From positions 1 to 42,961 of the forward strand of contig NZ_CALMAT010000048.1 in NCBI RefSeq assembly GCF_937859865.1: a DNA stretch of 42,961 bases, in the 5' to 3' direction. The translations under genes were made by a program, and so were the position numbers. Of the stretch, positions 6,193 through 42,071 are shown piece after piece. The notes beneath the pieces were generated by a model. The model did no database searches. It was not told where the DNA came from and was given only the letters and a program-made list of their open reading frames with translations. This DNA is from an uncultured Mucilaginibacter sp. Its GTDB lineage: Bacteria > Bacteroidota > Bacteroidia > Sphingobacteriales > Sphingobacteriaceae. Positions within the stretch are counted from its first letter, which is position 1. Every line of letters starts with the position of its first letter.

Positions 6193-6236
6193 ATGCTTCT
6201 TTTATCGGCTAAAATTTAGTGCGGTAAAAGAAGCAT
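6193..6236. repeat. Outward inverted pair of the dispersed 12-mer; likely bidirectional hairpin
   Basis: ATGCTTCTTTTA (6193-6204) and TAAAAGAAGCAT (6225-6236) are perfect inverted copies around a 20-base centre, forming a 12-bp stem, extended by one mismatch and two further pairs. It lies between the convergent rpoN and PorP genes, where it could end transcription from both sides. Its last base is part of the PorP stop codon. Confidence 0.8.
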
Positions 6237-7249: not shown

Positions 7250-10200
7250 TTATCTGATAATGGTGATCGGGCCTGCCATTCTGCTTCTTCCGCTGCCCGG
7301 GTTAATAACATAAAAATAGGTTCCCACTGGTAATTCTGCCCCTTTATAACGTCCGTCCCAAGGTATGGAATATCCTTTAGAGTAATAAATTTGCTGTCCG
7401 TAGCGGTTATATATTTCTACGGTAACGTCCGGATAGCTGTCTAAATTTTGGATGTTCCAAATATCGTTGATGCCATCGTTATTGGGTGTAAAAGTATTTG
7501 GGATTACCGGCGCTTTCAATACGGTTACCATAACTTCATCTGCGATGGTACAACCACCATCGGCAGAAGATACCGTGAGCTTATAAATAGTATTTACGTT
7601 TGGCCTGGCAACCGGGTTTAAAATATTATCGAAGTTTAAACCGGTGGAAGGTGTCCATTTATACGTCAGTTTATTGCCGGATGCGGTTGCATTTAGTGTA
7701 GCACTTTCCCCTTCCGGGATCAATATATCTTTGCCTGCATTTACTTTTGGTGTCGGATAAACGGTGATTTGTTTTGAAACCGTATCGGCACAGCCATTCT
7801 GTGCCGTAAAAATATAAGTGATGGTTTGGATGCCCAGCCCTGTCGCCGCCGGGCTGAACAAGCCCGAAGCCGAAATGCCTTTGCCCGAAAAAGTACCTGT
7901 TCCGTTAGCGCCGTTCAGTTCTGTAGCGACAACCTGGAACGGGTCAATTTCTGCACAAGTACTGGCTGGGATGGATAACGAAACTTGCGGATCGGCATTA
8001 ACCGTAACCACCTGCATTTTTTCGTCTACACAAGTAATGCCCGAATAAGCACGCATCAAAACCGTATAGTTGATGGTAGCCGGGGCATGAAAAACCGGAT
8101 ATTGGTGGCTGTACAATTTATCGGTTTCCGGGCTGTCATCGGTTTCAAACTGGTCCGGATGGTTGGTATAATCGTAATAAACCACCACCTTGCTCAGCTT
8201 TCCAAAGTCAACAGAAGATTTATTTCTGATCATCAACGCCTGTTTGCTGCACATACTACCGGTATTTAAAACGGTAAAATCAGCTTTTGGCGTTGCCCCG
8301 TTTACCGTAAAATTCATTGTCGTATCGGCAAAACAACCGTCTGCAGAAGTAACCGTTAATTTAACCTGATAAAGTGCCGCGTTAGTATATTTATGCTGTG
8401 GGTTTTTTTGGGTGGAAGTATTCGGGTTGGCCGGAGTTGCAGCGGCATCGCCAAAATTCCACAAGTACGTAAAGCCTGATTCGGTATGGTCGCTAATACT
8501 GCTTTTATCGGTAAAATTTGCGTACGTATCTGACAAACAAACTTTAGGCAAAACAAAATCAGGAACAGGCAGCGGATGAATGATTAACGGAACGCCAACC
8601 GAATCACTGTGGCAACCTAAATTGGTGTAAGTAATTAATTGCACATTGTAGTTTCCTGCATTTTTATAAGTATGTTGGAATGGTGCGTTGCTCGTTTGCG
8701 TTTGCTTCGTTCCATCGCCAAAACTCCAAACCCAACTGTTGATGGTGCCTTCGGCGGAAGTTGATTGATCTGTGATGGTAACCGCTTTGCTGGCACAATC
8801 CGGATTGGAAACTATAAACTTGGAAACCGGCTTGGCATAGATATGTACTTTTTGGGAATCCAAAGCCGAAGTACAACCATTGGAATTGGTAACCATTAAA
8901 GTGGCTATAAAATCTCCTGATTGCTTGTAAGTATGCGTTGGGTTTTGTACGCTTGAAGTTGTGCCATCGCCAAAATTCCAGTTCCAGGCTTTGATGGTTG
9001 CCCCTGCCCCATTGCTTTTATCAGTAAAACTTAAAGTGTCCGACGGGCAATTTTGGGCTCGGGCAGTAAACGCAACAACCGGATTGTCATAAACCGTAAA
9101 ATCAATATTCACTTCTTCATACGTTCCGCAGGCATCTGCAATGGCATTAAAAGCTTTAACCTTTACATCGTACAAGCCAGGTTTTGCATAAGCAACCATT
9201 TTTGGATAGCTATACGTGTACAAAGGCTTGTTGTCTTTAACCGTTTGGCTAACCAAGGTTGGATTATTGTCGGTAAAAACAGCATTGCCGTTTTGCGGGT
9301 CCCAAATAAGCTGTTTGGTTTGGAACGGGAGCGAAACTTCCAGCCTTACATTGTTACCAACACAAGTGCTGGCAATGCTGTCGCCAATGCTGTTTTTAAC
9401 TTGCACAAACTCGTTCAGGTTCCGCAAGTTTGTCCCGGCCGAGTAACCGTAAGACTCGGCATTGCCAAAACCATAAGCAATGGCATTAAAACCAGTTGAA
9501 GCTTTGATATTGTGCGTGCCCGAAGCAACCGGAAATTGTCCGTAAGCATAAGCCGTATTTCCCGGAACCGGTTTAAAACCAGCGGCAGGCACCGAACCGT
9601 CAATCGTAAAACTTGGCGCTGCCGAAGTGGCAATAATGACGTTGATGTAACTTTGCAAAATACGGTAAGCCGTTGGCGAATAAAGCGTTACGTTATTTAC
9701 AATTTGCTCAATCGGGTTAAGGTAGATCATTTCCGGGTCGCCCACATCGGCTCCGGGCGGTGGCGTAACCGGGCTGGAATTGGTTTGCGTAATGGCATAT
9801 TGCACCACCTGGATCGGTTTATCGGCACTGATTACGTTGGGCGTTGTGCTGTTAAACTCGTAATAAAAACCATTGGTAAAAGAAGCATTGCTTAAAACCG
9901 AACCGTTTAAAGTTACTTTGGTAGATGGGTCGCTGATGATGATCCGGAAAGTATCATAAGGCCGGTGGCTAAGCGGCGCGCTTACATAATTTCTGCCCCA
10001 AGATGCGGTTGGATAAACCTGCTGAAAAAGGTTATCTGAAGAAGTTGTCAAACCGTTGCCGATATAAATTTTACTGCTTCCGGAGAAAACCGCAATCCTT
10101 TTGCAAACATTTGTGCCAGAACTAACCGAACGGATGCGCGTGCCGGTCAAATCCGTAGCCGACAATCCCTGGTAAAGTTCGCCTTTTTTCAGATTCAAAG

Positions 10201-15172: not shown

Positions 15173-15206
15173 CCGAAATTTATTTTCGAGAAAAATAAAA
15201 AAAGGT

Positions 15207-15232
15207 GTAACTATTCGCTATCGCTTGCCGTA
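15207..15232 (+). promoter_or_regulatory. ECF-type promoter of small transcript copy 1
   Basis: GTAAC at 15207-15211 and CGTA at 15229-15232 are exactly 17 bases apart, as in copies 2 and 3. The pattern looks like an ECF sigma-factor promoter. Confidence 0.55.
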
Positions 15233-15237
15233 GAAGT

Positions 15238-15311
15238 AAGTGGTTTTAGAATTATTTGGTTAATGTTCTGTTTTAGTTAAAATCCCTGCCGGAGACGGTG
15301 GGGATTTTTTT
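15238..15311 (+). ncRNA. Putative small RNA, copy 1
   Basis: The body shared with the other two copies (GTGGTTTTAGAATTATTTGG and onward to TTTTAGTT) is followed by a terminator: ATCCCTGCC at 15282-15290 pairs with GGTGGGGAT at 15297-15305, then a run of T. This copy differs from copies 2 and 3 mainly in the terminator loop and by a one-base gap. No coding potential beyond a very short ORF is visible. It lies after ybbP and before an unrelated low-GC gene. The ncRNA call is inferred from promoter, conserved body and terminator together. Confidence 0.5.
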
Positions 15312-16494: not shown

Positions 16495-17343
16495 ATGAAG
16501 GCAAAATACATCAACCCGTTTACCGATTTTGGCTTTAAAAAGATTTTTGGCGAAGAAGCCAGCAAGCCGCTTTTGCTTGATTTTTTGAATGCGCTTTTGC
16601 CTCAAACCAACAAAATAGCAGATTTAACCTTTAAAAACACCGAACAATTAGGACAAACAGAAGTCGACCGAAAAGCTATTTACGATATTTATTGTGAAAA
16701 TGAAAATGGCGAAAAGTTTATTGTGGAACTACAAAAAGCCAAACAAAACTATTTTAAGGAAAGGACTATTTACTATTCCACTTTTCCGATTCGCGAACAG
16801 GCCGAAAAAGGCGAATGGAATTACAATTTAAAAGCAGTTTATTGTGTTGGTATTTTGGATTTTACTTTTGACGATTACAAAAACGAAACCGAGAAAAGCG
16901 AAGTTGTGCATACAATTAAGTTGAAAAACCAAAATGGTAAAACTTTTTATGACAAGCTGACTTACATCTATCTTGAAATGCCAAATTTCAAAAAAACGGA
17001 AGCCGAACTGGAAAGCCGCTTAGACAAGTGGTTGTATTTTATTAAAAATTTGGAAGACTTTCAAACCATCCCAACAATTTTTAAAGATGAAGTTTTTATA
17101 CAAGCTTTTGAAAAAGCCGAACTTGCAAAGTTTAACCAAATTGAATTGGACAATTACGAAAACAGTTTGAAAAGCTATCGTGATTTAAAAGGTGTTATTG
17201 ACACCGCTTTTGATGAAGGCAAGACAGAAGGTAAATTAGAAGGCAAGTTAGAAGTTGCAAAAAGGATGAAATTAAAAGGGCTTTCACCAAAGGACATAGC
17301 TGAATTAACCGGACTTTCTGAGAATGAAATAGAAAAGTTATGA
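16495..17343 (+). CDS. Rpn-family PD-(D/E)XK nuclease/putative transposase, copy 1
   Basis: A 282-residue member of the PDDEXK_2 family (PF12784), starting MKAKYINPFTDFGFKKIFG. The nuclease core is visible as D64 (AIYDIYC) and E78-x-Q80 (FIVELQKAK). The E. coli relatives RpnA-E are nucleases that promote RecA-independent recombination; many are linked to horizontal transfer or phage defence. The C terminus has three E-G-K-x repeats (17215-17250) and a small helix-turn-helix-like end (LSPKDIAELTGLSENEIEKL). About 90% identical to copy 2 at 23444. Small RNA copy 2 lies downstream. Confidence 0.9.
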   Translation: MKAKYINPFTDFGFKKIFGEEASKPLLLDFLNALLPQTNKIADLTFKNTEQLGQTEVDRKAIYDIYCENENGEKFIVELQKAKQNYFKERTIYYSTFPIREQAEKGEWNYNLKAVYCVGILDFTFDDYKNETEKSEVVHTIKLKNQNGKTFYDKLTYIYLEMPNFKKTEAELESRLDKWLYFIKNLEDFQTIPTIFKDEVFIQAFEKAELAKFNQIELDNYENSLKSYRDLKGVIDTAFDEGKTEGKLEGKLEVAKRMKLKGLSPKDIAELTGLSENEIEKL

Positions 17344-17449
17344 TCAAAACTTTAAAAACAACGTTTACTTCTAAAACATTGAAATTTGAAAAGAAAATTA
17401 GTAACCGAAAAAATAATTTCTACACAGCTAAAAATAATTTCAAAAAACT

Positions 17450-17475
17450 GTAACCCTTTTAACCAAGCCACCGTA
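17450..17475 (+). promoter_or_regulatory. ECF-type promoter of small transcript copy 2
   Basis: GTAAC at 17450-17454 and CGTA at 17472-17475 with a 17-base spacer. Confidence 0.55.
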
Positions 17476-17480
17476 CAAGT

Positions 17481-17556
17481 AAGCGGTTTTAGAAATTATT
17501 TGGTTAATGTTCTGTTTTAGTTCAATCCCTGCTTTGCAAAAGGCAGGGATTTTTTT
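17481..17556 (+). ncRNA. Putative small RNA, copy 2
   Basis: From the CGTA box a short transcript would contain the conserved body and end at a terminator in which ATCCCTGC (17525-17532) pairs with GCAGGGAT (17543-17550) before a T-run. It is identical in sequence to copy 3. It lies about 110 bases after Rpn gene 1. A T-arm-like GTTCAATCC is present, but no tRNA cloverleaf can be drawn. Confidence 0.5.
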
Positions 17557-17667
17557 GTGAAGGCTTGGTTCACCTTCCGCAAAATTTTAGTTACATGCTT
17601 CTTTTATCAACTAAAAACTAAGGTTACATAAATCTTTAGCCGAAATTCTGTTACTTTTAGCCATGCG
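17481..17667 (+). repeat. 187-bp exact direct repeat, copy 1
   Basis: Base-for-base identical to 24613-24799 by my reading, with no gaps. It covers small RNA, terminator, a dispersed 12-mer (17595-17606, minus strand) and the leader of the following gene up to its second codon. Identity stops abruptly after ATGCG, where a pseudogene begins here and an intact gene begins at the other copy. Confidence 0.85.
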
Positions 17668-17727
17668 GTTTTGTTTGTGCTTTTCGGGTTTTTTGCCAGC
17701 CGTTTTATGGCGCAAACCGGCAACATC
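17663..17727 (+). pseudogene. 5' remnant of a carboxypeptidase-regulatory-like domain protein
   Basis: Starts ATGCGGTTTTG and encodes M-R-F-C-L-C-F-S-G-F-L-P-A-V-L-W, close to the signal peptide of the intact gene at 24795 (M-R-F-F-F-C-F ... L-P-S-V-L-W-A-Q). One base is lost after the Trp codon, so the A-Q-T-G-N-I continuation is out of frame. About 65 bases in, similarity ends exactly where an extended copy of the dispersed repeat begins. It is a broken paralogue, truncated at the repeat. Confidence 0.7.
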
Positions 17728-23443: not shown

Positions 23444-24304
23444 ATGAAGGCAAAATACATTAACCCGTTTACAGATTTTGGTTTTAAAAAAATTTTTGGC
23501 GAAGAAGCCAGCAAACCGCTTTTGCTTGATTTTTTGAATGCACTTTTGCCTCAAACCAATAAAATAGCAGACCTAACTTTTAAAAACACCGAACAATTAG
23601 GACAAACAGAATCAGACAGAAAAGCTATTTACGACATTTATTGTGAAAATGAAAACGGTGAAAAGTTTATCGTGGAGCTGCAAAAAGCCAAACAGAATTA
23701 CTTCAAAGAGAGGACAATTTACTATTCCACTTTTCCTATTCGGGAACAGGCCGAAAAAGGCGAATGGAACTACAACCTCAAAGCAGTTTATTGTGTTGGC
23801 ATCTTAGATTTTACTTTTGACGATTATGAAAACGAGCCAGAGAAAAGCGAGGTCGTGCACACCATTAAGTTGAAAAACCAAAACGGGCAGGTTTTCTACA
23901 ATAAGTTGACCTACATTTATTTGGAAATGCCAAATTTCAAAAAGGCGGAAGCCGAATTGGAAACCCGTTTAGACCAATGGCTGTATTTTATCAAGCACTT
24001 GGAAGACTTCCAGTCAATACCCACCATTTTTAAAGATGAAGTTTTTATACAAGCCTTTGAAAAAGCAGAACTTGCAAAGTTTAACCAGAACGAATTAGAC
24101 AGTTATGAAAACAGTTTAAAAACATACCGTGATCTAAAAGGCGTTATTGACACCGCTTTTGACGAAGGCAAGATAGAAGGCAAGTTAGAAGGCAAAATAG
24201 AAGGCAAAATAGAAGTTGCAAAAAAGATGAAACTGAAGGGGATTTCACCTAAAGATATATCTGAATTGACGGGCCTTACCGAAAGTGAAATAGAAAAGTT
24301 GTAG
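23444..24304 (+). CDS. Rpn-family PD-(D/E)XK nuclease/putative transposase, copy 2
   Basis: A 286-residue near-duplicate of the protein at 16495, with the same D64 and E78-x-Q80 nuclease residues. It has four E-G-K-x repeats instead of three, encoded by four 12-base units at 24164-24211. Both copies look intact, and many of the differences are third-position changes, so both have probably been under selection. The cassette is bounded by inverted dispersed 12-mers (23328 and 24727) and followed by small RNA copy 3. Confidence 0.9.
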   Translation: MKAKYINPFTDFGFKKIFGEEASKPLLLDFLNALLPQTNKIADLTFKNTEQLGQTESDRKAIYDIYCENENGEKFIVELQKAKQNYFKERTIYYSTFPIREQAEKGEWNYNLKAVYCVGILDFTFDDYENEPEKSEVVHTIKLKNQNGQVFYNKLTYIYLEMPNFKKAEAELETRLDQWLYFIKHLEDFQSIPTIFKDEVFIQAFEKAELAKFNQNELDSYENSLKTYRDLKGVIDTAFDEGKIEGKLEGKIEGKIEVAKKMKLKGISPKDISELTGLTESEIEKL

Positions 24305-24410: not shown

Positions 24411-24581
24411 GGCAGGCTTCCTCCTCTGCACCAAGACTTTCAGAACTTGGTAAAAAAATCCAATTAAAGACAATATCAAAACAGATGGAACCACATTTGC
24501 TTCCGGAGAATATTGACTGCCGAAAAAAAATTATAGCTGAAAAAATAATTTTGGTACCATGAAAAATAATTTCAAAAAAGC

Positions 24582-24607
24582 GAAACCCTTTTAACTAAGC
24601 CCACGTA
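24582..24607 (+). promoter_or_regulatory. ECF-type promoter of small transcript copy 3
   Basis: GAAAC at 24582-24586 and CGTA at 24604-24607, again 17 bases apart. The first box differs from GTAAC in one base. Confidence 0.5.
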
Positions 24608-24612
24608 GAAGA

Positions 24613-24688
24613 AAGCGGTTTTAGAAATTATTTGGTTAATGTTCTGTTTTAGTTCAATCCCTGCTTTGCAAAAGGCAGGGATTTTTTT
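24613..24688 (+). ncRNA. Putative small RNA, copy 3
   Basis: Identical to copy 2 over its whole length, including the terminator (ATCCCTGC at 24657-24664 with GCAGGGAT at 24675-24682 and a T-run). It could be a free small RNA or an attenuated leader of the gene starting at 24795; the terminator would then limit read-through. Confidence 0.5.
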
Positions 24689-24799
24689 GTGAAGGCTTGG
24701 TTCACCTTCCGCAAAATTTTAGTTACATGCTTCTTTTATCAACTAAAAACTAAGGTTACATAAATCTTTAGCCGAAATTCTGTTACTTTTAGCCATGCG
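24613..24799 (+). repeat. 187-bp exact direct repeat, copy 2
   Basis: Identical partner of 17481-17667, 7132 bases away. Includes the inverted dispersed 12-mer at 24727-24738 and the leader and first codons of the intact gene at 24795. Confidence 0.85.
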
Positions 24800-25973
24800 T
24801 TTTTTCTTTTGTTTTTTCCTGGTTATTTTTCTGCCGTCGGTTTTATGGGCACAAAACGGCACCATTTCCGGAAAGGTAACCGCGATTGATACCAAAGGCC
24901 CGTTGGGCAAAGCCAGTGTTTTTCTCAGCAACGCTACGTTTGGAACCGTTACGGCCGAAGACGGGACTTTTACGCTAACCGGTGTAAAACCTGGTCAGTA
25001 CAATTTGGTGGTTTCTATTTTGGGTTACGAAACTTATAACCAAAGCATTTTGGTGGGCACAAAACCGCAGCAACTAACCATCGAAATGATGCCCAAACCG
25101 ATACAAATGCGGGAAGTTGTTATCACCACCAGTGCCAACTGGAAAAAAAACTATGCTTTGTTTATCAGGAATTTTATTGGCACAACAGAAAACGCCAAAC
25201 TTTGCAAAGTGCTAAACCCGCACGCCGTTTACCTTATTTACCATAAAAAAACGCAAACGCTGGAAGCATCTACGGATGAGTTTTTGGAGGTCGAAAACCG
25301 GGCTTTAGGTTATAAAGTCCGTTTTTTGATTAAGGAATTTGAAAGCAGCTCGCTTACCAGCATTATCCGTTATCAAGGGCAGGTGTTGTTTGAAGAACTA
25401 AAAGGCAGCGAATCGCAAAAAAAGAAATGGCAGGAAAAACGGCGACTGGCTTATTACGGTTCGAGCATGCACTTTTTCCGCGCCTTGTACCAGCAGCATT
25501 TACAGCAGGAAGGTTTCGTGATCCGCCAGTTGCAACGGCGGCCAAACCCAAAACGCCTGCCGGAAGAAATTTTGCAGCAGAAATATGCAAAGTTTAACAA
25601 AAGCAACAACCGCGATTCGGTAAACTACTGGAACGAAAAGGCGCAGGAACCGCGGTATATCGAAAACCTGATTAAACAACCTTTGCATGAGGAAGATGTA
25701 TTGCGGCGCACAGAGCAGCCCGGTTTGTTTGCGCTTACTTTTCCTGATTGTTTGTATGTTGTTTATACCAAAAAAAGCGATCCCAACAATTTGGACAATG
25801 TTTACCGTCCGCTTGATTTGGAAAGCAATGCCACCAGCATCATCACTTTATATGCCCAATATGCTTTGTTTGATTTGAATGGTGTAGTGATCTCCCCGCA
25901 AAGTACTTTGTACGAAGGCGATTGGGCGAACGACAAGTTGGCCGAACTGCTGCCGGTAGATTATGCCCCCTAA
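24795..25973 (+). CDS. Exported protein with carboxypeptidase-regulatory-like domain
   Basis: A 392-residue protein with a signal peptide ending VLWAQ. Residues about 20-105 form a CarboxypepD_reg-like beta-sandwich (TISGKVTAIDTKGPLGKASV ... VSILGYETYNQSI), common in Bacteroidota envelope proteins. The rest has no domain I recognise; it is rich in Lys/Arg/Gln in the middle. Likely periplasmic or on the outer membrane; no TonB plug or barrel follows. A truncated paralogue start lies at 17663 behind the same 187-bp leader. The TAA stop is the first triplet of a dispersed 12-mer. Confidence 0.85.
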   Translation: MRFFFCFFLVIFLPSVLWAQNGTISGKVTAIDTKGPLGKASVFLSNATFGTVTAEDGTFTLTGVKPGQYNLVVSILGYETYNQSILVGTKPQQLTIEMMPKPIQMREVVITTSANWKKNYALFIRNFIGTTENAKLCKVLNPHAVYLIYHKKTQTLEASTDEFLEVENRALGYKVRFLIKEFESSSLTSIIRYQGQVLFEELKGSESQKKKWQEKRRLAYYGSSMHFFRALYQQHLQQEGFVIRQLQRRPNPKRLPEEILQQKYAKFNKSNNRDSVNYWNEKAQEPRYIENLIKQPLHEEDVLRRTEQPGLFALTFPDCLYVVYTKKSDPNNLDNVYRPLDLESNATSIITLYAQYALFDLNGVVISPQSTLYEGDWANDKLAELLPVDYAP

Positions 25974-25982
25974 AAGAAGCAT
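25971..25982 (+). repeat. Dispersed 12-mer supplying a stop codon
   Basis: TAAAAGAAGCAT; its TAA is the stop codon of the preceding gene. Confidence 0.8.
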
Positions 25983-31382: not shown

Positions 31383-31394
31383 TAAAAGAAGCAT
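31383..31394 (+). repeat. Dispersed 12-mer running into the exonuclease start codon
   Basis: TAAAAGAAGCAT whose last AT begins the ATG at 31393, the same arrangement as at 10758. The purine stretch could serve as ribosome-binding site. Confidence 0.8.
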
Positions 31395-37659: not shown

Positions 37660-37689
37660 TCACCAATTTTTATACGGTAAAAGAAGTAT
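37660..37689 (+). repeat. Extended dispersed repeat upstream of the DUF433 module
   Basis: TCACCAATTTTTA block then TAAAAGAAGTAT (37678-37689) between the DUF433 and NmrA-like genes. Confidence 0.8.
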
Positions 37690-37724
37690 CGGTAGTTTTA
37701 GAAACTTGTTCAACTCCAAGTAGG

Positions 37725-38597
37725 TTATTTTACAAGTAAAGCTTTGTTATCAACTACAAATTGATCAAACGATATAGGCTGCCTGCCGGTTATTTTTTCT
37801 ATACAATTTGAAATTGGTGGTCCTTTGCGAAACCGTTGAAAGTAGTGGAGCATAATCATAACCAGAATAAACATAGTTGGAACTTTTTCCCTTCGTTTTG
37901 TTATATAAAACTTTAATAAATTTGGTGATTGATATTGGATTTTCGTTCCCAACTTGGCAGTAAATTTGTTTGCCATTTCTTCAAAAGTAAGCTTTTCGTC
38001 ACTGGTCAAATCGTATGATTTATTAACATGGTTTTTAGTAGCTGCAATTATTGTTGCTGCTGCCATGCCAATATCTCGCACATCTATCAGTGTAAACTTT
38101 GCATTTCCGGCTGGCAAAAATATTGTTCTTTTGTTTACCAAATCATTTCGCAAAACAGTTGTAAAGTTTTGCATAAAATAAGCCGGTCGCAAAAAGGTAT
38201 AAGCAATATTGCTTTTTGCAATCAATTTCTCAATTCTATAATGTGGAATTATTTTATTGTTCTTCACACCTTGGACAGATAAAAACAGGATATGCTCAAC
38301 TCTTTCTGCTTTTGCCAATGTAATAAAAGATTTGAAATGTTTTTCTACTTTAGAAATTTGAGGCGGCATTAACAAAAACAAAATATTACAATTTTGCAAG
38401 GCACTTTTATAAGTTGTGCTATCGGTAAAATCAAATTGTACAGCGCTAATAGGATAAGCTGCCAATTTTTTTTGATTTTCTTCCACGTTCCGTAAACCGG
38501 CAAAAACTTGAATTGTATGGTTAAGTTTACTTAAACATTTGATTACCTCAATGCCTACATTACCGGTTGCGCCTGTTATCAAAACCTTTTTCATCAC
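37725..38597 (-). CDS. NmrA/TMR-like NAD(P)-binding protein
   Basis: A 290-residue atypical SDR with the Rossmann motif ITGATGNVG at 6-14 and the family pattern FDFTDSTTYKSAL and FLRPAYFMQNF. NmrA/HSCARG-like proteins sense NADP(H) or reduce quinones; the catalytic Tyr-x-x-x-Lys of classical SDRs is not evident, so a sensor or quinone reductase role is possible. Gene is AT-rich and monocistronic. Confidence 0.85.
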   Translation of the reverse strand: MMKKVLITGATGNVGIEVIKCLSKLNHTIQVFAGLRNVEENQKKLAAYPISAVQFDFTDSTTYKSALQNCNILFLLMPPQISKVEKHFKSFITLAKAERVEHILFLSVQGVKNNKIIPHYRIEKLIAKSNIAYTFLRPAYFMQNFTTVLRNDLVNKRTIFLPAGNAKFTLIDVRDIGMAAATIIAATKNHVNKSYDLTSDEKLTFEEMANKFTAKLGTKIQYQSPNLLKFYITKRREKVPTMFILVMIMLHYFQRFRKGPPISNCIEKITGRQPISFDQFVVDNKALLVK

Positions 38598-38963
38598 AAA
38601 AAAATATGTTTATATAAACGATGTTGGTATTGCCTTTTACGTTTAAAATATTACCCGATAAAAACAGTATTAACCTACATGGTCAATGCTTTATTGTGGC
38701 AAAATGTTTATCGAAATGTTATTGTTTGTTGTGGGCAAAACAACCAGAATTTTAATTCTGAACCTATTTCCAATCAAAACAAACAATGATTTTTATGTGG
38801 TAAAAGAAGCATAGGAAAATTTTGCATCAACATCATTACAATAACAAATTTGAAAAATATCAACATAAAATTTTAAGTTTGAAAAATACTGAAAGCCGAG
38901 ACCAAATAAACCATAGAAAAGGTTTAGTAATCAATTTCTTTCTTCTATTAGATTATTAAATTA
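38598..38963. other. Gene-free stretch with two dispersed motifs
   Basis: About 365 bases with no credible gene. It carries a variant motif TAAAAACAGTAT at 38659-38670 and TAAAAGAAGCAT at 38801-38812 behind an AATGATTTTTA block. The promoter of the downstream CDP-ribitol gene must lie here, but I cannot place it. Confidence 0.6.
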
Positions 38964-40343
38964 ATGAGAAATATTGCAGTTATTTTAGCTGGCGGAACAG
39001 GGGCCCGCCTAAACCTGGAGTTGCCCAAACAGTTTTTTAAAGTGGCGGGGAAAACCGTTTTAGAACATACTTTGGATATTTTTCAAAAGCATAAAAAAAT
39101 AGATGAAATAGCGGTAGTTGGCCATCCTGATTTTATCGGAATGATCGAAGACAGCGTGAACAAAAACGCCTACACCAAGGTTAAAAAAATTTTGTTTGGC
39201 GGCAACGAAAGGTATTTGTCAACCTGGAGTGCCATCAATGCCTACGAAGATTGCAATGATTGTCATCTTATTTTTCATGATGCTGTCCGGCCGCTTGTTT
39301 CAGATCGGATTATTGATGAAGTGATCCAGGCTTTGGAGGGAGGTTATCGGGCAGTAGACGTTGCGGTCCCTGCGGTGGATACGATCATCCAGGTAACATC
39401 AGCAGACAGTGAAATTGAAACCATACCCGACCGCAGCAAACTGATGCGGGGCCAAACCCCGCAAGCTTTTACTTTACAATTGATAAAAAAAGCTTACCAA
39501 AGTGCTTTTAAAGATCCAAACTTTAAATCTACCGATGATTGCGGCGTTGTTAAAAAATATCTTCCTGCCGAACCAATTTTTGTAGTTAAGGGAGAAGAAG
39601 CCAACATGAAACTAACTTATAAAGAAGACACTTACTTGTTAGACCGGTTGTTTCAGTTAAAAGCTTCTGTTTTTACAAATTGGGCCGTAACAGATTTTAC
39701 AGGTTTGAAAGACAAGGTGCTGGTGGTTTTTGGAGGAAGTTATGGAATTGGAAAAAGCATTGTTGATATTGCCGCTGCCAATAACGCCATTGTATATCCA
39801 TTTTCCAGAAGTTGCGGCAATGTGGATATCTGTTCCAGGACAAGTGTTGCACAAGCTTTAAAAAATGTATATCAGCAGGAAGGCAAGATTGATTTTGTAA
39901 TCAATACGGCTGCCGTTTTGAAAAAAGAACCTTTGATGAACATGGATTATGAACAGATTTTGGAGGCTGTGCATACCAATTATTTAGGGACAGTTCATGT
40001 AGCCCTTGAGAGTTTTAGCTATTTGAAAGAAAGCCAGGGCCATCTCCTGTTTTTTACTTCGAGTTCATATACCCGAGGACGCGCCTATTACAGCCTTTAT
40101 TCTTCTTCAAAAGCTGCTGTGGTAAATTTTGTCCAGGCTATTTCGCAAGAGTGGGACGGTTTTAAAATCAAGGTAAATTGTATCAACCCGGAGCGTACCC
40201 ACACGCCGATGAGGATCAAGAACTTTGGCAACGAAAATATAAACACGCTTTTATCTGCAGACCATGTTGCAAATGCTTCGATAGCTGCTATTTTGTCTGA
40301 ACATTCCGGCCAGGTAATTGATGTTAAATTGTCGGCGTTTTAA
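38964..40343 (+). CDS. Bifunctional ribitol-5-phosphate cytidylyltransferase / ribulose-5-phosphate reductase
   Basis: A 459-residue fusion. Residues 1-235 are an IspD/TarI-like cytidylyltransferase (LAGGTGARL, LPKQF, FHDAVRPLVSD, PDRSKLMRGQTPQAF). Residues about 245-459 are an SDR domain (VFGGSYGIGKSI, NTAAVL, YSLYSSSKAAV). The same fusion occurs in Haemophilus Bcs1, which reduces ribulose 5-phosphate and makes CDP-ribitol. The following TagF-like polymerase would use that product. CDP-glycerol or another polyol is possible but the SDR half favours ribitol. Confidence 0.85.
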   Translation: MRNIAVILAGGTGARLNLELPKQFFKVAGKTVLEHTLDIFQKHKKIDEIAVVGHPDFIGMIEDSVNKNAYTKVKKILFGGNERYLSTWSAINAYEDCNDCHLIFHDAVRPLVSDRIIDEVIQALEGGYRAVDVAVPAVDTIIQVTSADSEIETIPDRSKLMRGQTPQAFTLQLIKKAYQSAFKDPNFKSTDDCGVVKKYLPAEPIFVVKGEEANMKLTYKEDTYLLDRLFQLKASVFTNWAVTDFTGLKDKVLVVFGGSYGIGKSIVDIAAANNAIVYPFSRSCGNVDICSRTSVAQALKNVYQQEGKIDFVINTAAVLKKEPLMNMDYEQILEAVHTNYLGTVHVALESFSYLKESQGHLLFFTSSSYTRGRAYYSLYSSSKAAVVNFVQAISQEWDGFKIKVNCINPERTHTPMRIKNFGNENINTLLSADHVANASIAAILSEHSGQVIDVKLSAF

Positions 40344-40364
40344 AAGCCTGTTCAACTATTTGCC

Positions 40365-40457
40365 ATGCTTCTTTTACCACCTAAAAATCATTGCCTTTTT
40401 TATGGTTTCTATTTCGGTAAATATCCTGCACAAAATTTATGGGCATAAAAGAAGCAT
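40365..40457. repeat. Outward inverted pair of the dispersed 12-mer between two operon genes
   Basis: ATGCTTCTTTTA at 40365-40376 and TAAAAGAAGCAT at 40446-40457, 93 bases overall, each with an A/T block toward the middle. It fills most of the 201-base gap between the CDP-ribitol gene and the polymerase gene; the short open frame across it is not credible. Confidence 0.8.
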
Positions 40458-40544
40458 TGCTGTTTTTCTTGTAAAAAATTTAATAAAAGACCATAACAAA
40501 ACAATTTCCGATGCAATTAAAAAATCTACTTTATATAATTAGCT

Positions 40545-41771
40545 GTGTTCAAATTTAAAGCCCGTTTATTGTTTTTTTATAAAGTACTGCGTAATTATAG
40601 TTTATACCTGCTGTCTTTTTTGATGCCGCGCGATAAAAAAAAGTGGGTGTTTGCCAATTATATTGTAGATGCTTTTAACGACAACCCTAAATACTTGTTT
40701 ATTTATGTAAACCAACATTGCCCTGATATCAAGGCTATCTATATCACCCCTGACCCGGGCATCTATTTTCAATTAAAGAAACTTGGCTTAAAGGTTTATA
40801 AAAAGAAAAGCTTTGCAGGAGTTTGGCATTGCCTTACCGCAAAAGTTTACTTTTACAATGCCTACCCGGCCGATATAAATTATTACACCAGCGGCGGTGC
40901 CGTCCTGATAAATCTATGGCATGGCGTAGGTTTAAAAAAAATTGAGTTTAACATAGAGCGGGGAAAGCTTACTGATCTTTACAAAAGAAAAAAGTTTTTT
41001 TATCGGCTTACGATGCCCTGGTTGTACAAAAGGCCAAGCTGGTTTGTTTCTTCTACTCAATTTCAATCTATCCCGTTTTCTACGGCCTTTCGTATCCCGC
41101 TTCAAAAATGCCTTGATTTCGGTTACCCGCGAAACGATATTTTATTGGCTACCGAAGATGAGCGGCTGCGTTTTATCCAGAAATACGAACGGGAGGAAAC
41201 ATTACAGTTGCTCGGGTTGATGAAAAACTACGACAAGGTGTATATTTATATGCCTACCTGGCGCGATTCGATTGATTTTCTCCAAGATACCGGGATTGAT
41301 TTTGCTGTTTTAAACGATATTTTGCTTGCCAACCATGCATTGCTGATCCTTAAACTGCATATCAACACGCCGCATATCCAAGAGATAACCGCTTTATCAA
41401 ACCTTGTTCTTCTGCATGGCAATATTGATGTATATGGGATTTTGCCATACACCCATACATTGATTACAGACTATTCTTCTATCCTTTATGATTACATCAT
41501 CATGCCGGGAAAAGAAGTGGTACTTTACCTTTTTGATTATGACCAGTACGTTGATACCCGTGATTTTAATTATCCGTTTATGGAAAATGTGGCCGGTGCT
41601 ATTGTAAAGGATAACCAGGGTTTTTACAAAATTTTTGATAAAGAAATGAAGGCTGAAAGTATCAATGAGATCAGTACAATTCGAGATAAGTTTTGGGGAA
41701 ATTATAACGGTGATGCATCCAAAAAAATAGTCGGCTTTGTGTATTCAGAATTGAAAATCAGAAAGCATTAA
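40545..41771 (+). CDS. CDP-glycerol/CDP-ribitol phosphotransferase (TagF/TarL-like)
   Basis: A 408-residue GT-B-type polyol-phosphate transferase. It shows the family blocks INLWHGVGLKKIEF (catalytic His region), FGYPRNDILL, YIYMPTWRDS and LITDYSSILYDY (Ser-Ser for the CDP-bound phosphate). It lacks an N-terminal glycosyltransferase module, so it is the single-domain form. Start is GTG at 40545. With the CDP-ribitol synthase upstream it probably adds ribitol-phosphate units to a surface glycan or capsule on the cytoplasmic face of the inner membrane. Confidence 0.88.
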   Translation: MFKFKARLLFFYKVLRNYSLYLLSFLMPRDKKKWVFANYIVDAFNDNPKYLFIYVNQHCPDIKAIYITPDPGIYFQLKKLGLKVYKKKSFAGVWHCLTAKVYFYNAYPADINYYTSGGAVLINLWHGVGLKKIEFNIERGKLTDLYKRKKFFYRLTMPWLYKRPSWFVSSTQFQSIPFSTAFRIPLQKCLDFGYPRNDILLATEDERLRFIQKYEREETLQLLGLMKNYDKVYIYMPTWRDSIDFLQDTGIDFAVLNDILLANHALLILKLHINTPHIQEITALSNLVLLHGNIDVYGILPYTHTLITDYSSILYDYIIMPGKEVVLYLFDYDQYVDTRDFNYPFMENVAGAIVKDNQGFYKIFDKEMKAESINEISTIRDKFWGNYNGDASKKIVGFVYSELKIRKH

Positions 41772-41791
41772 GTTTGGTTTTTAAACTGTAA

Positions 41792-41938
41792 AGCCTGTAC
41801 AAAATTTATTGAATACAATTTGAATGCTTCTTTTATCACCTAAAATTTGGTGAAGGGTTGATTTATTGATTTGATCTAAGCACAAATTTTTATAGGGTAA
41901 AAGAAGCATTGGTAGTTTAGCATAAATCTAAACAAGCC
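41792..41938. mobile_element. Degenerate MITE-like element with inverted 12-mer pair
   Basis: Inner pair: ATGCTTCTTTTA (41824-41835) and TAAAAGAAGCAT (41898-41909), with TAAAATTTGGTG and CACAAATTTTTA blocks facing inward. The outer ends, AGCCTGTACAAAATT and the complement of GGCTTGTTTAGATTT, are imperfect versions of the 14-bp termini of 17822-17977. No coding capacity. It occupies the gene-free stretch 41772-42016. Confidence 0.65.
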
Positions 41939-42016
41939 CTTTATTTTTTAAATTTGGATTGATTTCCGGATTTCTATTGATCAATCTGTTTCAAAACAAA
42001 TTAGATATTCAAACAA

Positions 42017-42051
42017 AAAGCCCGAACCAGATTTTTTCTGGTTTGGGCTTT
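42017..42051 (-). terminator. Terminator of the rplU-rpmA operon
   Basis: AAAGCCCGAACCAGA pairs with TCTGGTTTGGGCTTT (one G-T wobble) around a short T-rich loop, about 20 bases after the rpmA stop. A/T runs on both sides would let it work in both directions. Confidence 0.8.
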
Positions 42052-42071
42052 TTAAATTTTACAGTAAGAAA

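Follow-up and report, generated by a model that had tools for sequence, protein, structure and literature searches.

An apparently gained stretch with putative ribitol-phosphate genes in a Mucilaginibacter genome and an abundant genus-specific 29-bp motif, a possible self-recognition signal

The window, here the whole stretch of 42,961 nucleotides analysed from an uncultured Mucilaginibacter sp. (contig NZ_CALMAT010000048.1), includes a Bcs1-type fusion gene, a glycerophosphotransferase-family gene (PF04464), and many copies of a short motif. The features discussed below are as follows (coordinates, strand, description, basis).

6193..6236, no strand: tight inverted motif pair (30-bp offset) between convergent genes, 44-nt hairpin (RNA fold z -6.2)
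9877..9888, minus strand: motif copy within a coding gene; both sisters carry the identical 14-bp core in the matching position (alignment)
37678..37689, minus strand: single motif core, bordering the apparently gained stretch on the left (motif search)
37711..42013, no strand: stretch unaligned in the sister loci, between a DUF5615 gene and rpL27, roughly delimiting the apparently gained DNA (site comparison)
37725..38597, minus strand: NmrA-like NAD(P)-binding protein gene, within the stretch missing from the sisters (ORF, domain, site comparison)
38659..38670, minus strand: single motif core, GT variant (motif search)
38801..38812, minus strand: single motif core, TC variant (motif search)
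38964..40343, plus strand: Bcs1-type fusion of a ribitol-5-phosphate/IspD-like cytidylyltransferase (aa ~1-230) and an SDR reductase (aa ~247-459) (ORF, domain matches, alignment)
40365..40457, no strand: inverted motif pair between the genes, 93-bp imperfect palindrome, plus-strand core 40365-40376 and minus-strand core 40446-40457 (RNA fold z -3.0)
40545..41771, plus strand: glycerophosphotransferase-family protein (PF04464), 408 aa, GTG start (ORF, domain match, TagF alignment)
41824..41909, no strand: inverted motif pair after the genes, 86-bp imperfect palindrome, plus-strand core 41824-41835 and minus-strand core 41898-41909 (RNA fold z -4.1)

The fusion gene is a 459-aa ORF at the place where the earlier note had put a CDP-ribitol synthase. 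The domain search recognized IspD (2.6e-45) and adh_short (4.2e-27) in the single chain; an IspD/TarI-type cytidylyltransferase joined to an SDR reductase is the architecture of Bcs1. GGSYGIG (257-263), Y379/K383 (YxxxK), and PKQ (21-23), which we take to be signature motifs, are invariant in all four aligned homologues. For the first domain, the best-matching solved relative is 6xhp, a ribitol-5-phosphate cytidylyltransferase. Judged from its family, the fusion protein would reduce ribulose-5-phosphate and then activate it to CDP-ribitol. Bcs1 is described in the excerpt available of PMC10299916 as a single enzyme that reduces and activates ribulose-5-phosphate, with the reductase fused. The likeness to Bcs1 of Haemophilus influenzae type b, a CDP-ribitol synthase, lies in the two matching domains and is one of domains rather than of alignment to Bcs1 itself, and the activity here is putative; no Bcs3-like multi-domain polymerase stands alongside, and the host belongs to Bacteroidota. 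A bifunctional cytidylyltransferase/SDR protein of Parabacteroides distasonis, WP_009276125.1, shares the architecture and the phylum, with 57.8% of residues identical across 99% of the query, while its locus has a Wzy-type polymerase, LicD, and glycosyltransferases, and only the PF04464 gene is found here. Glycan genes surround the fusion homologues in three other loci. A related-locus search of genome contigs with the Bcs1 protein gave 19 pattern matches, none of which was confirmed. The fusion was also considered as the essential IspD of the organism, and this was rejected; a separate IspD-like match is present at G000:C9:2417-3094 (34% identity over query residues 2-237, with one TAG counted within the match).

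The neighboring transferase matches Glyphos_transf with 1.5e-49 and is the sole PF04464 gene in the genome. Its WHG and KLH histidines align with those of WHG and RMH in the TagF chain 3l7i, and the PF04464 catalytic domain therefore has both of the presumably catalytic histidines; in the u49466 chain, N replaces the first of them. The protein scores 99.2 bits against the TarF equivalog (cut-off 550) and, lower, 60.3 bits against the TarL equivalog (cut-off 1000). It passes neither curated cut-off, and may thus be either a polymerase or a single-unit transferase. TagF enters the alignment only from residue 339 onward, and the 408-aa protein therefore lacks an equivalent of its N-terminal part. 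The ORFs and domains thus bear out a Bcs1-type fusion next to a PF04464 transferase in a Gram-negative Bacteroidota, as had been proposed. The proposed label "TagF/TarL-type polymerase" was overstated.

By family, the transferase would attach ribitol-phosphate or the unit of a different CDP-polyol to a surface glycan, and the two genes probably help make a ribitol-phosphate surface sugar. The glycan receiving it may be the product of genes elsewhere in the genome; no glycan export or polymer genes were recognized in the ORF lists of the window, where the family scans covered four proteins. It is a real possibility, somewhat on the lower side of even, that the pair serves another CDP-polyol or a single-unit glycan decoration and not a teichoic-acid-like polymer. 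The higher score for TarF than for TarL, both under cut-off, and the unmatched N-terminal part of TagF agree with this, as does the presence of LicD, in place of a PF04464 gene, beside the fusion in locus L027 and in P. distasonis. It is opposed by the ribitol-5-phosphate cytidylyltransferase as top solved relative of the first domain, and by the reductase fusion, which is the Bcs1 arrangement in the excerpt of PMC10299916. Taken by themselves, the ribitol genes add modestly to what is known: this surface-glycan pair has a patchy distribution, and an annotation of its first member already exists in another Bacteroidota.

Together with the NmrA-like gene, the pair fills about 4.3 kb that both sister species are without at this site. 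The comparison used 240 kb of sister loci in 12 stretches; absence of the fusion was established by genome-wide search of the sister genomes (E<=1e-60), and absence of the NmrA-like and PF04464 genes applies to this site only. The NmrA-bcs1-glycerophosphotransferase stretch, lying between conserved housekeeping genes, was apparently gained. An inverted repeat pair between the genes and a second one after them are present, as the earlier note described. On the left of bcs1 there are single copies only and no pair, so that the cassette is not bracketed by two pairs. The repeats are not MITEs of the cassette either: their arms are copies of an asymmetric motif of about 29 bp that is specific to the genus and distributed throughout the window and the genome.

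The motif consists of a core, AT[G/A]CT(TC/GT)TTTTAYC, followed by an A/T tract at +20 to +24. Three genomes of the genus were compared, one of them Mucilaginibacter arboris, and the motif density in the sampled stretches is 0.75-0.91 per kb. The exact main core was found 1479 times in this genome of 3.98 Mb, split 745 to 734 between the strands, with 0 for its reversed control; the two sisters have 1357 and 711 copies. The same core is present 0-3 times per genome in 148 other genomes of the family and in 391 other genomes of the phylum sample, 11 of which are also among the 148. With up to two mismatches allowed, the window has 39 matches distributed over all 43 kb, against 0.67 in shuffles. 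For a short and asymmetric motif to be so extremely over-represented, and on either strand, is characteristic of uptake sequences, and by extrapolation the motif would reach several thousand copies. The information profile of 234 copies, whose core part (not the tail) is shaped by the use of the core as the search key, stops at about +29 and is nearly flat beyond, with little shared sequence outside. Adjacent core bases covary (TC 231, GT 79, TT 11, and GC 10 in 363 kb).

No comparable motif that could represent a dialect was recognized by k-mer search in samples of up to 20 kb from other genera of the family, where the best 11-mer count was 3; four stretches of the genus itself reached 6-8. 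This search covered G049, G038, and a single stretch per genome for 16 others of the family, 20 kb long in 15 cases and 7.8 kb in one, leaving aside the shorter stretches L061, L065, L067, and L071, and also L050. As to phage DNA, the 29-bp pattern had 0 exact matches in viral contigs, which says little because phages of this genus may be missing from those contigs. The motif was not recognized among the matches listed in the literature on Bacteroidota uptake sequences and Mucilaginibacter palindromes. A-rich k-mers are listed for Riemerella and Flavobacterium in an excerpt of PMC7965970, which says that their function needs study.

Many copies lie within genes and in frame. Interior coding copies numbered 56, 48, and 69 in the three genomes, against means of 3.3, 3.8, and 4.2 in 20 synonymous shuffles; these counts and those for gaps below are based on home-made gene calls. 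Of 170 interior coding copies, 153 have only A/T at positions +20 to +23, compared with 15.4% of 2124 random coding 4-mers. Divided by gene quintile, the intragenic copies (29/38/44/36/23) are not concentrated at gene ends. Between the two sisters (78.4% identity), the motif is kept at 27/51 and 27/39 aligned sites, three of them with a switch between TC and GT. This retention exceeds the background of 22% of random 14-mers, a control that counts up to one mismatch, while "kept" permits the motif's own degenerate positions.

At the remaining 24 of 51 and 12 of 39 sites the motif is not kept. This speaks against an uptake function, and the pair offset of about 80 bp with weak interior similarity suits a MITE/BIME-like element.

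Among the 288 motif matches in 363 kb there are 28 inverted pairs, and most copies are unpaired. An offset near 80 bp is preferred (67-83 in 19 of the 28), and the interiors of the pairs resemble one another weakly more often than by chance, in 11 of 435 comparisons and in 1 after shuffling. Both features would fit a REP/MITE-like mobile family that amplified in the ancestor of the genus, the motif being its end or unit and single copies being eroded halves, and Y1_Tnp (RAYT-type) matches are present in all three genus genomes (1, 2, and 1). We consider this origin improbable, since interior coding copies that preserve the reading frame and the A/T tract are in excess, orthologous sites are conserved including the TC/GT switches, and little common sequence extends past about 29 bp; Y1_Tnp also occurs without the motif, with 2-10 matches in five of ten other family genomes and none in the other five. 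A binding site for a genus-specific chromosome-organizing or global regulatory protein is unlikely too, at roughly one chance in four. The core and A/T tract with covarying adjacent bases resemble a protein-DNA contact surface, both strands are used equally, and the spacing of copies has a CV of 0.68 after merging those less than 300 bp apart, which itself lowers the CV. However, divergent gaps, where promoters lie, have fewer copies (14 in 34 gaps, 8.6 kb) than convergent gaps (57 in 36 gaps, 14.1 kb), unlike with a usual regulator, and such abundance was not found outside one genus. The higher motif density in convergent gaps, and the better folding of all three tested pairs than their shuffles, would agree with pairs that are mainly RNA hairpins, either terminators or stabilizers of mRNA 3' ends, with single copies being incidental. 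This is very unlikely given the small number of inverted pairs and the many intragenic copies with the A/T tract kept. A known RNA family at the pairs was rejected: of the four Rfam matches with E<1, none reached its gathering score, and each lies within 41948-42066, next to the terminator and off the motif pairs.

The reading that we prefer, though still at a little less than an even chance, combines two layers: an apparently gained stretch with putative ribitol genes, and a motif serving as a self-recognition signal of the genus. Within the genus, DNA carrying the motif would be favored in uptake or recombination, as with USS/DUS, and the motif would accumulate; inverted pairs at gene ends may have a secondary duty as hairpins or terminators, and, with motif tags all over the genome, the cassette would be an ordinary passenger. 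A role of the repeats in transfer, suggested in the earlier note, is possible in the form of this genome-wide signal rather than as cassette ends. We infer the uptake function by analogy. That this genus of Sphingobacteriaceae evolved its own self-recognition sequence of about 29 bp for natural transformation or recombination, independently of the proteobacterial USS/DUS and without a type IV pilus motor, is proposed only tentatively, the chances being somewhat short of even.

No T2SSE/PilB-type ATPase (PF00437) scored over the cut-off in the three genus genomes, where two sub-threshold partial matches were found in the sisters, so the usual uptake pilus of USS/DUS systems appears to be absent. 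All three genomes have genes of the competence (ComEC) and DprA families; each family is over the cut-off in 10 of 14 control genomes, and such widespread genes prove nothing alone. Uptake sequences are the classic DNA motif that spreads through a genome by biased transformation. If the proposed reading is true, an unrelated origin in Bacteroidota would be an independent test of how such a motif arises, spreads into genes, and isolates lineages, and the seemingly missing pilus motor could be a hint of some other machinery for uptake.

The USS of Pasteurellaceae has an asymmetric core followed by A/T tracts, as does the motif here. To our knowledge, uptake sequences are established only in Pasteurellaceae and Neisseriaceae, and we know of none in Bacteroidota. 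According to the excerpts available of PMC2346458, PMC3630211, and PMC5217627, uptake sequences have hundreds to thousands of copies, also within genes, and form inverted pairs at terminators; the motif is similarly found in coding genes and in intergenic inverted pairs. It is like the USS, as excerpted, in copy number (hundreds to thousands), in intra- and intergenic distribution, and in inverted pairs at gene ends. It differs in its unrelated sequence and phylum, in having no type IV pilus ATPase over the cut-off, and in the intragenic copies, which lack the gene-end bias reported for Pasteurellaceae in those excerpts. With the DUS dialects of Neisseriaceae, for which the excerpts quote 2245-5918 copies, it shares lineage-specific variants, intragenic copies, and inverted pairs, while the motif here was found in only one genus, with two co-resident core variants, and no dialects appear in the small sister-genus samples. 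REP/BIME and MITE elements are likewise dispersed imperfect palindromes in intergenic DNA, whereas the unit here is asymmetric, most copies stand outside inverted pairs, and many are in frame within genes.

The cassette at the end of the window consists of two genes, with a third alongside:

37725–38597, reverse strand: NmrA-like gene
38964–40343, forward strand: bcs1 fusion ORF, 459 aa, IspD and SDR domains in a single chain
40545–41771, forward strand: ORF of the PF04464 (glycerophosphotransferase) family, 408 aa, the sole PF04464 match of the genome

The assignment of a Bcs1-type synthase to the gene at 38964, made in an earlier note, is supported by its domain architecture. An IspD domain (residues 4–223, 2.6e-45) and an SDR domain (residues 252–420, 4.2e-27) were recognized by family profile search, and the best match among solved structures is the ribitol-5-phosphate cytidylyltransferase 6xhp (3.1e-29). 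The domain arrangement is that of Bcs1 from Hib, for which reduction of ribulose-5-phosphate followed by activation to CDP-ribitol is reported (PMC10299916). From its sequence, the fusion is predicted to produce CDP-ribitol. The neighboring gene had been called a TagF/TarL-type polymerase. Its PF04464 membership stands, and its histidines align with those of TagF; the scores against TarF (99 bits, cut-off 550) and TarL (60 bits, cut-off 1000) are far under the cut-offs, and thus the label "polymerase" exceeds the evidence.

RNase R, GGPP synthase, rpL27, and rpL21 keep the same order around the site in two sister species of the genus (G002 and G027). The gap between GGPP synthase and rpL27 is 5041 bp here, 2012 bp in G002, and 798 bp in G027. 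No alignment of the NmrA–bcs1–transferase stretch (~37.7–42.0 kb) was found in the 240 kb of G002 and G027 compared. Of 151 family genomes, 3 encode the fusion at E ≤ 1e-60: the present genome and two members of other genera (56–60% identity). The same search found it in neither sister. In one of these other genera (locus L026), the fusion directly follows a PF04464 gene and precedes a glycosyltransferase gene; in the other (locus L027), the fusion is flanked by a glycosyltransferase gene and a LicD-family gene. Among plasmid records, 102 contain a fusion match, with query coverage of 80% or more in 2 of them. The best match, from Parabacteroides distasonis (57.8% identity), belongs to a glycan locus that also encodes LicD and a Wzy-type polymerase. 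Given the absence from the sisters and the scattered homologs in glycan loci, a surface-glycan function of patchy distribution is well supported, and the cassette was probably gained in this genome, the alternative being loss in both sisters. Genes of this kind are already known in Bacteroidota. A LicD-family gene lies immediately 3' of the fusion in two different Bacteroidota (L027:2840-3751 and, in P. distasonis, L104:7374-8282), which suggests LicD as a possible ribitol-phosphate transferase in these loci.

The inverted pairs described as MITE-like between and after the genes are real (40365–40457 and 41824–41909), but their motif is genome-wide rather than particular to the cassette. This genome has 1479 exact main cores (745 and 734 on the two strands), and the reversed-motif control gave 0 occurrences in it. 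The three genomes of the genus contain 1479, 1357, and 711 exact cores, and each of 148 other family genomes and of 391 other phylum-sample genomes (11 of them shared with the family set) contains 0–3. All eight core forms together reach 0.91, 0.85, and 0.75 per kb in stretches sampled from the three species, compared with 0.01 per kb in other genera (367 kb); scaled to the whole genome, the density extrapolates to roughly 3600 copies.

In a profile of 234 copies with at most one core mismatch (363 kb), information spans position 1 to ~29 and is nearly flat beyond. The consensus opens with AT[G/A]CTTCTTTTAYC and continues through degenerate positions to an A/T tract (20–24) and a weak G.G (27–29). 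A second core has CTGTTTTTA replacing CTTCTTTTA, with a similar tail (48 copies). Positions 6–7 change together, as TC (231) and GT (79) are common while TT (11) and GC (10) are rare in the summed counts.

The window contains 41 copies, and 39 matches at ≤2 mismatches against 0.67 expected. Seven cores lie in 37,678–41,909, all intergenic; scanning this interval revealed none within the bcs1, transferase, or NmrA gene, the closest near-misses being at 38278 in NmrA (1 mismatch) and 39482 in bcs1 (2 mismatches). The homologous loci of other species (L026, L027, L049–L051, L104) contain 0 cores; therefore, the copies around the cassette either arose after its arrival or were brought in with it from another member of the genus. 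A contribution of these copies to the transfer of the cassette is possible. Past the transferase gene and before rpL27 lies a conventional hairpin (42015–42053, 17-nt arms, 94% complementary), which is separate from the motif pairs and overlapped by weak sub-threshold Rfam matches.

Other repeats are present in the window. A closely similar gene pair (16495–17343 and 23444–24304), with MKAKYINPFTDFGFKKIFGEEASKPLLLDFLNAL at the start of both, probably encodes PD-(D/E)XK nuclease family transposases; downstream of each gene lies a near-identical stretch carrying one shared motif copy, at 17595 and at 24727, respectively. Repeats of ~90–270 bp at 15196–15289, 17409–17672, and 24574–24690 cross-match one another's places in the G002 and G027 loci and are another dispersed family.

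Within coding sequence, stretches sampled from the three species have 56, 48, and 69 interior copies, against means of 3.3, 3.8, and 4.2 (maxima 6, 9, and 7) in 20 synonymous shuffles. In the sample of this genome, interior copies with ≤1 mismatch are concentrated in two of six frames (64 of 80), often translated as (V/I)KE(A/V) or (A/T)SF(T/I). The A/T tract is kept in these copies: positions 20–23 are all A/T in 153 of 170, versus 15.4% of 2124 random coding 4-mers. The density is ~0.2 per kb in coding sequence (interior copies) and 2.0–2.8 per kb in intergenic sequence, with 57 copies in 36 convergent gaps (14.1 kb), 114 in 173 co-directional gaps (42.0 kb), and 14 in 34 divergent gaps (8.6 kb). 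Two reverse-oriented copies extend across gene boundaries: the one at 25971–25982 contributes the TAA stop codon to a gene that ends at 25973, and the one at 31383–31394 overlaps the ATG at 31393.

The G002–G027 alignment spans 119,719 columns at 78.4% identity; of the motif sites in G002, 27 of 51 are retained in G027, and of those in G027, 27 of 39 are retained in G002. The flanks share 74% identity, and ≤1 mismatch occurs in 22% of random 14-mers. Three retained sites switch between TC and GT cores. This genome retains 10 of 13 sites with G002 in each direction, and 12 of 20 and 12 of 16 with G027. At the remaining aligned sites, the motif is partly degraded or absent, indicating turnover. 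Overall, it resembles a unit that is being maintained more than repeats in decay. A REP/MITE family is an unlikely identity for it; a mobile-element origin is kept alive by the interiors of the wider inverted pairs, which show a slight excess of mutual similarity (11 of 435 comparisons versus 1 shuffled; 30 pairs, three species). Among 28 inverted neighbor pairs <250 bp apart in 363 kb, 19 are offset by 67–83 bp, and 4 have a 30-bp offset and form tight hairpins. We read the inverted pairing as a secondary arrangement, and RNA hairpins are a very unlikely account of the motif. A site for a chromosome-organising or regulatory protein is somewhat unlikely.

By analogy, the leading, though tentative, reading of the motif is a DNA-uptake or recombination signal; its core plus A/T tract recalls the layout of the Haemophilus USS. 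ComEC-family and DprA-family genes are present in all three genomes of the genus, and no PilB/PilT-type ATPase scored above the cut-off when these were searched by ATPase profile. Competence is on record for the phylum, as natural competence is reported for Riemerella species and a preference for self DNA for R. columbina (PMC7965970). The motif is undescribed among the matches listed from the open-access literature. Like the uptake sequences described in Pasteurellaceae and Neisseriaceae (PMC2346458, PMC3630211, PMC5217627), it is abundant on both strands and lineage-restricted, occurs as intragenic copies and intergenic inverted pairs, and combines maintenance with turnover.
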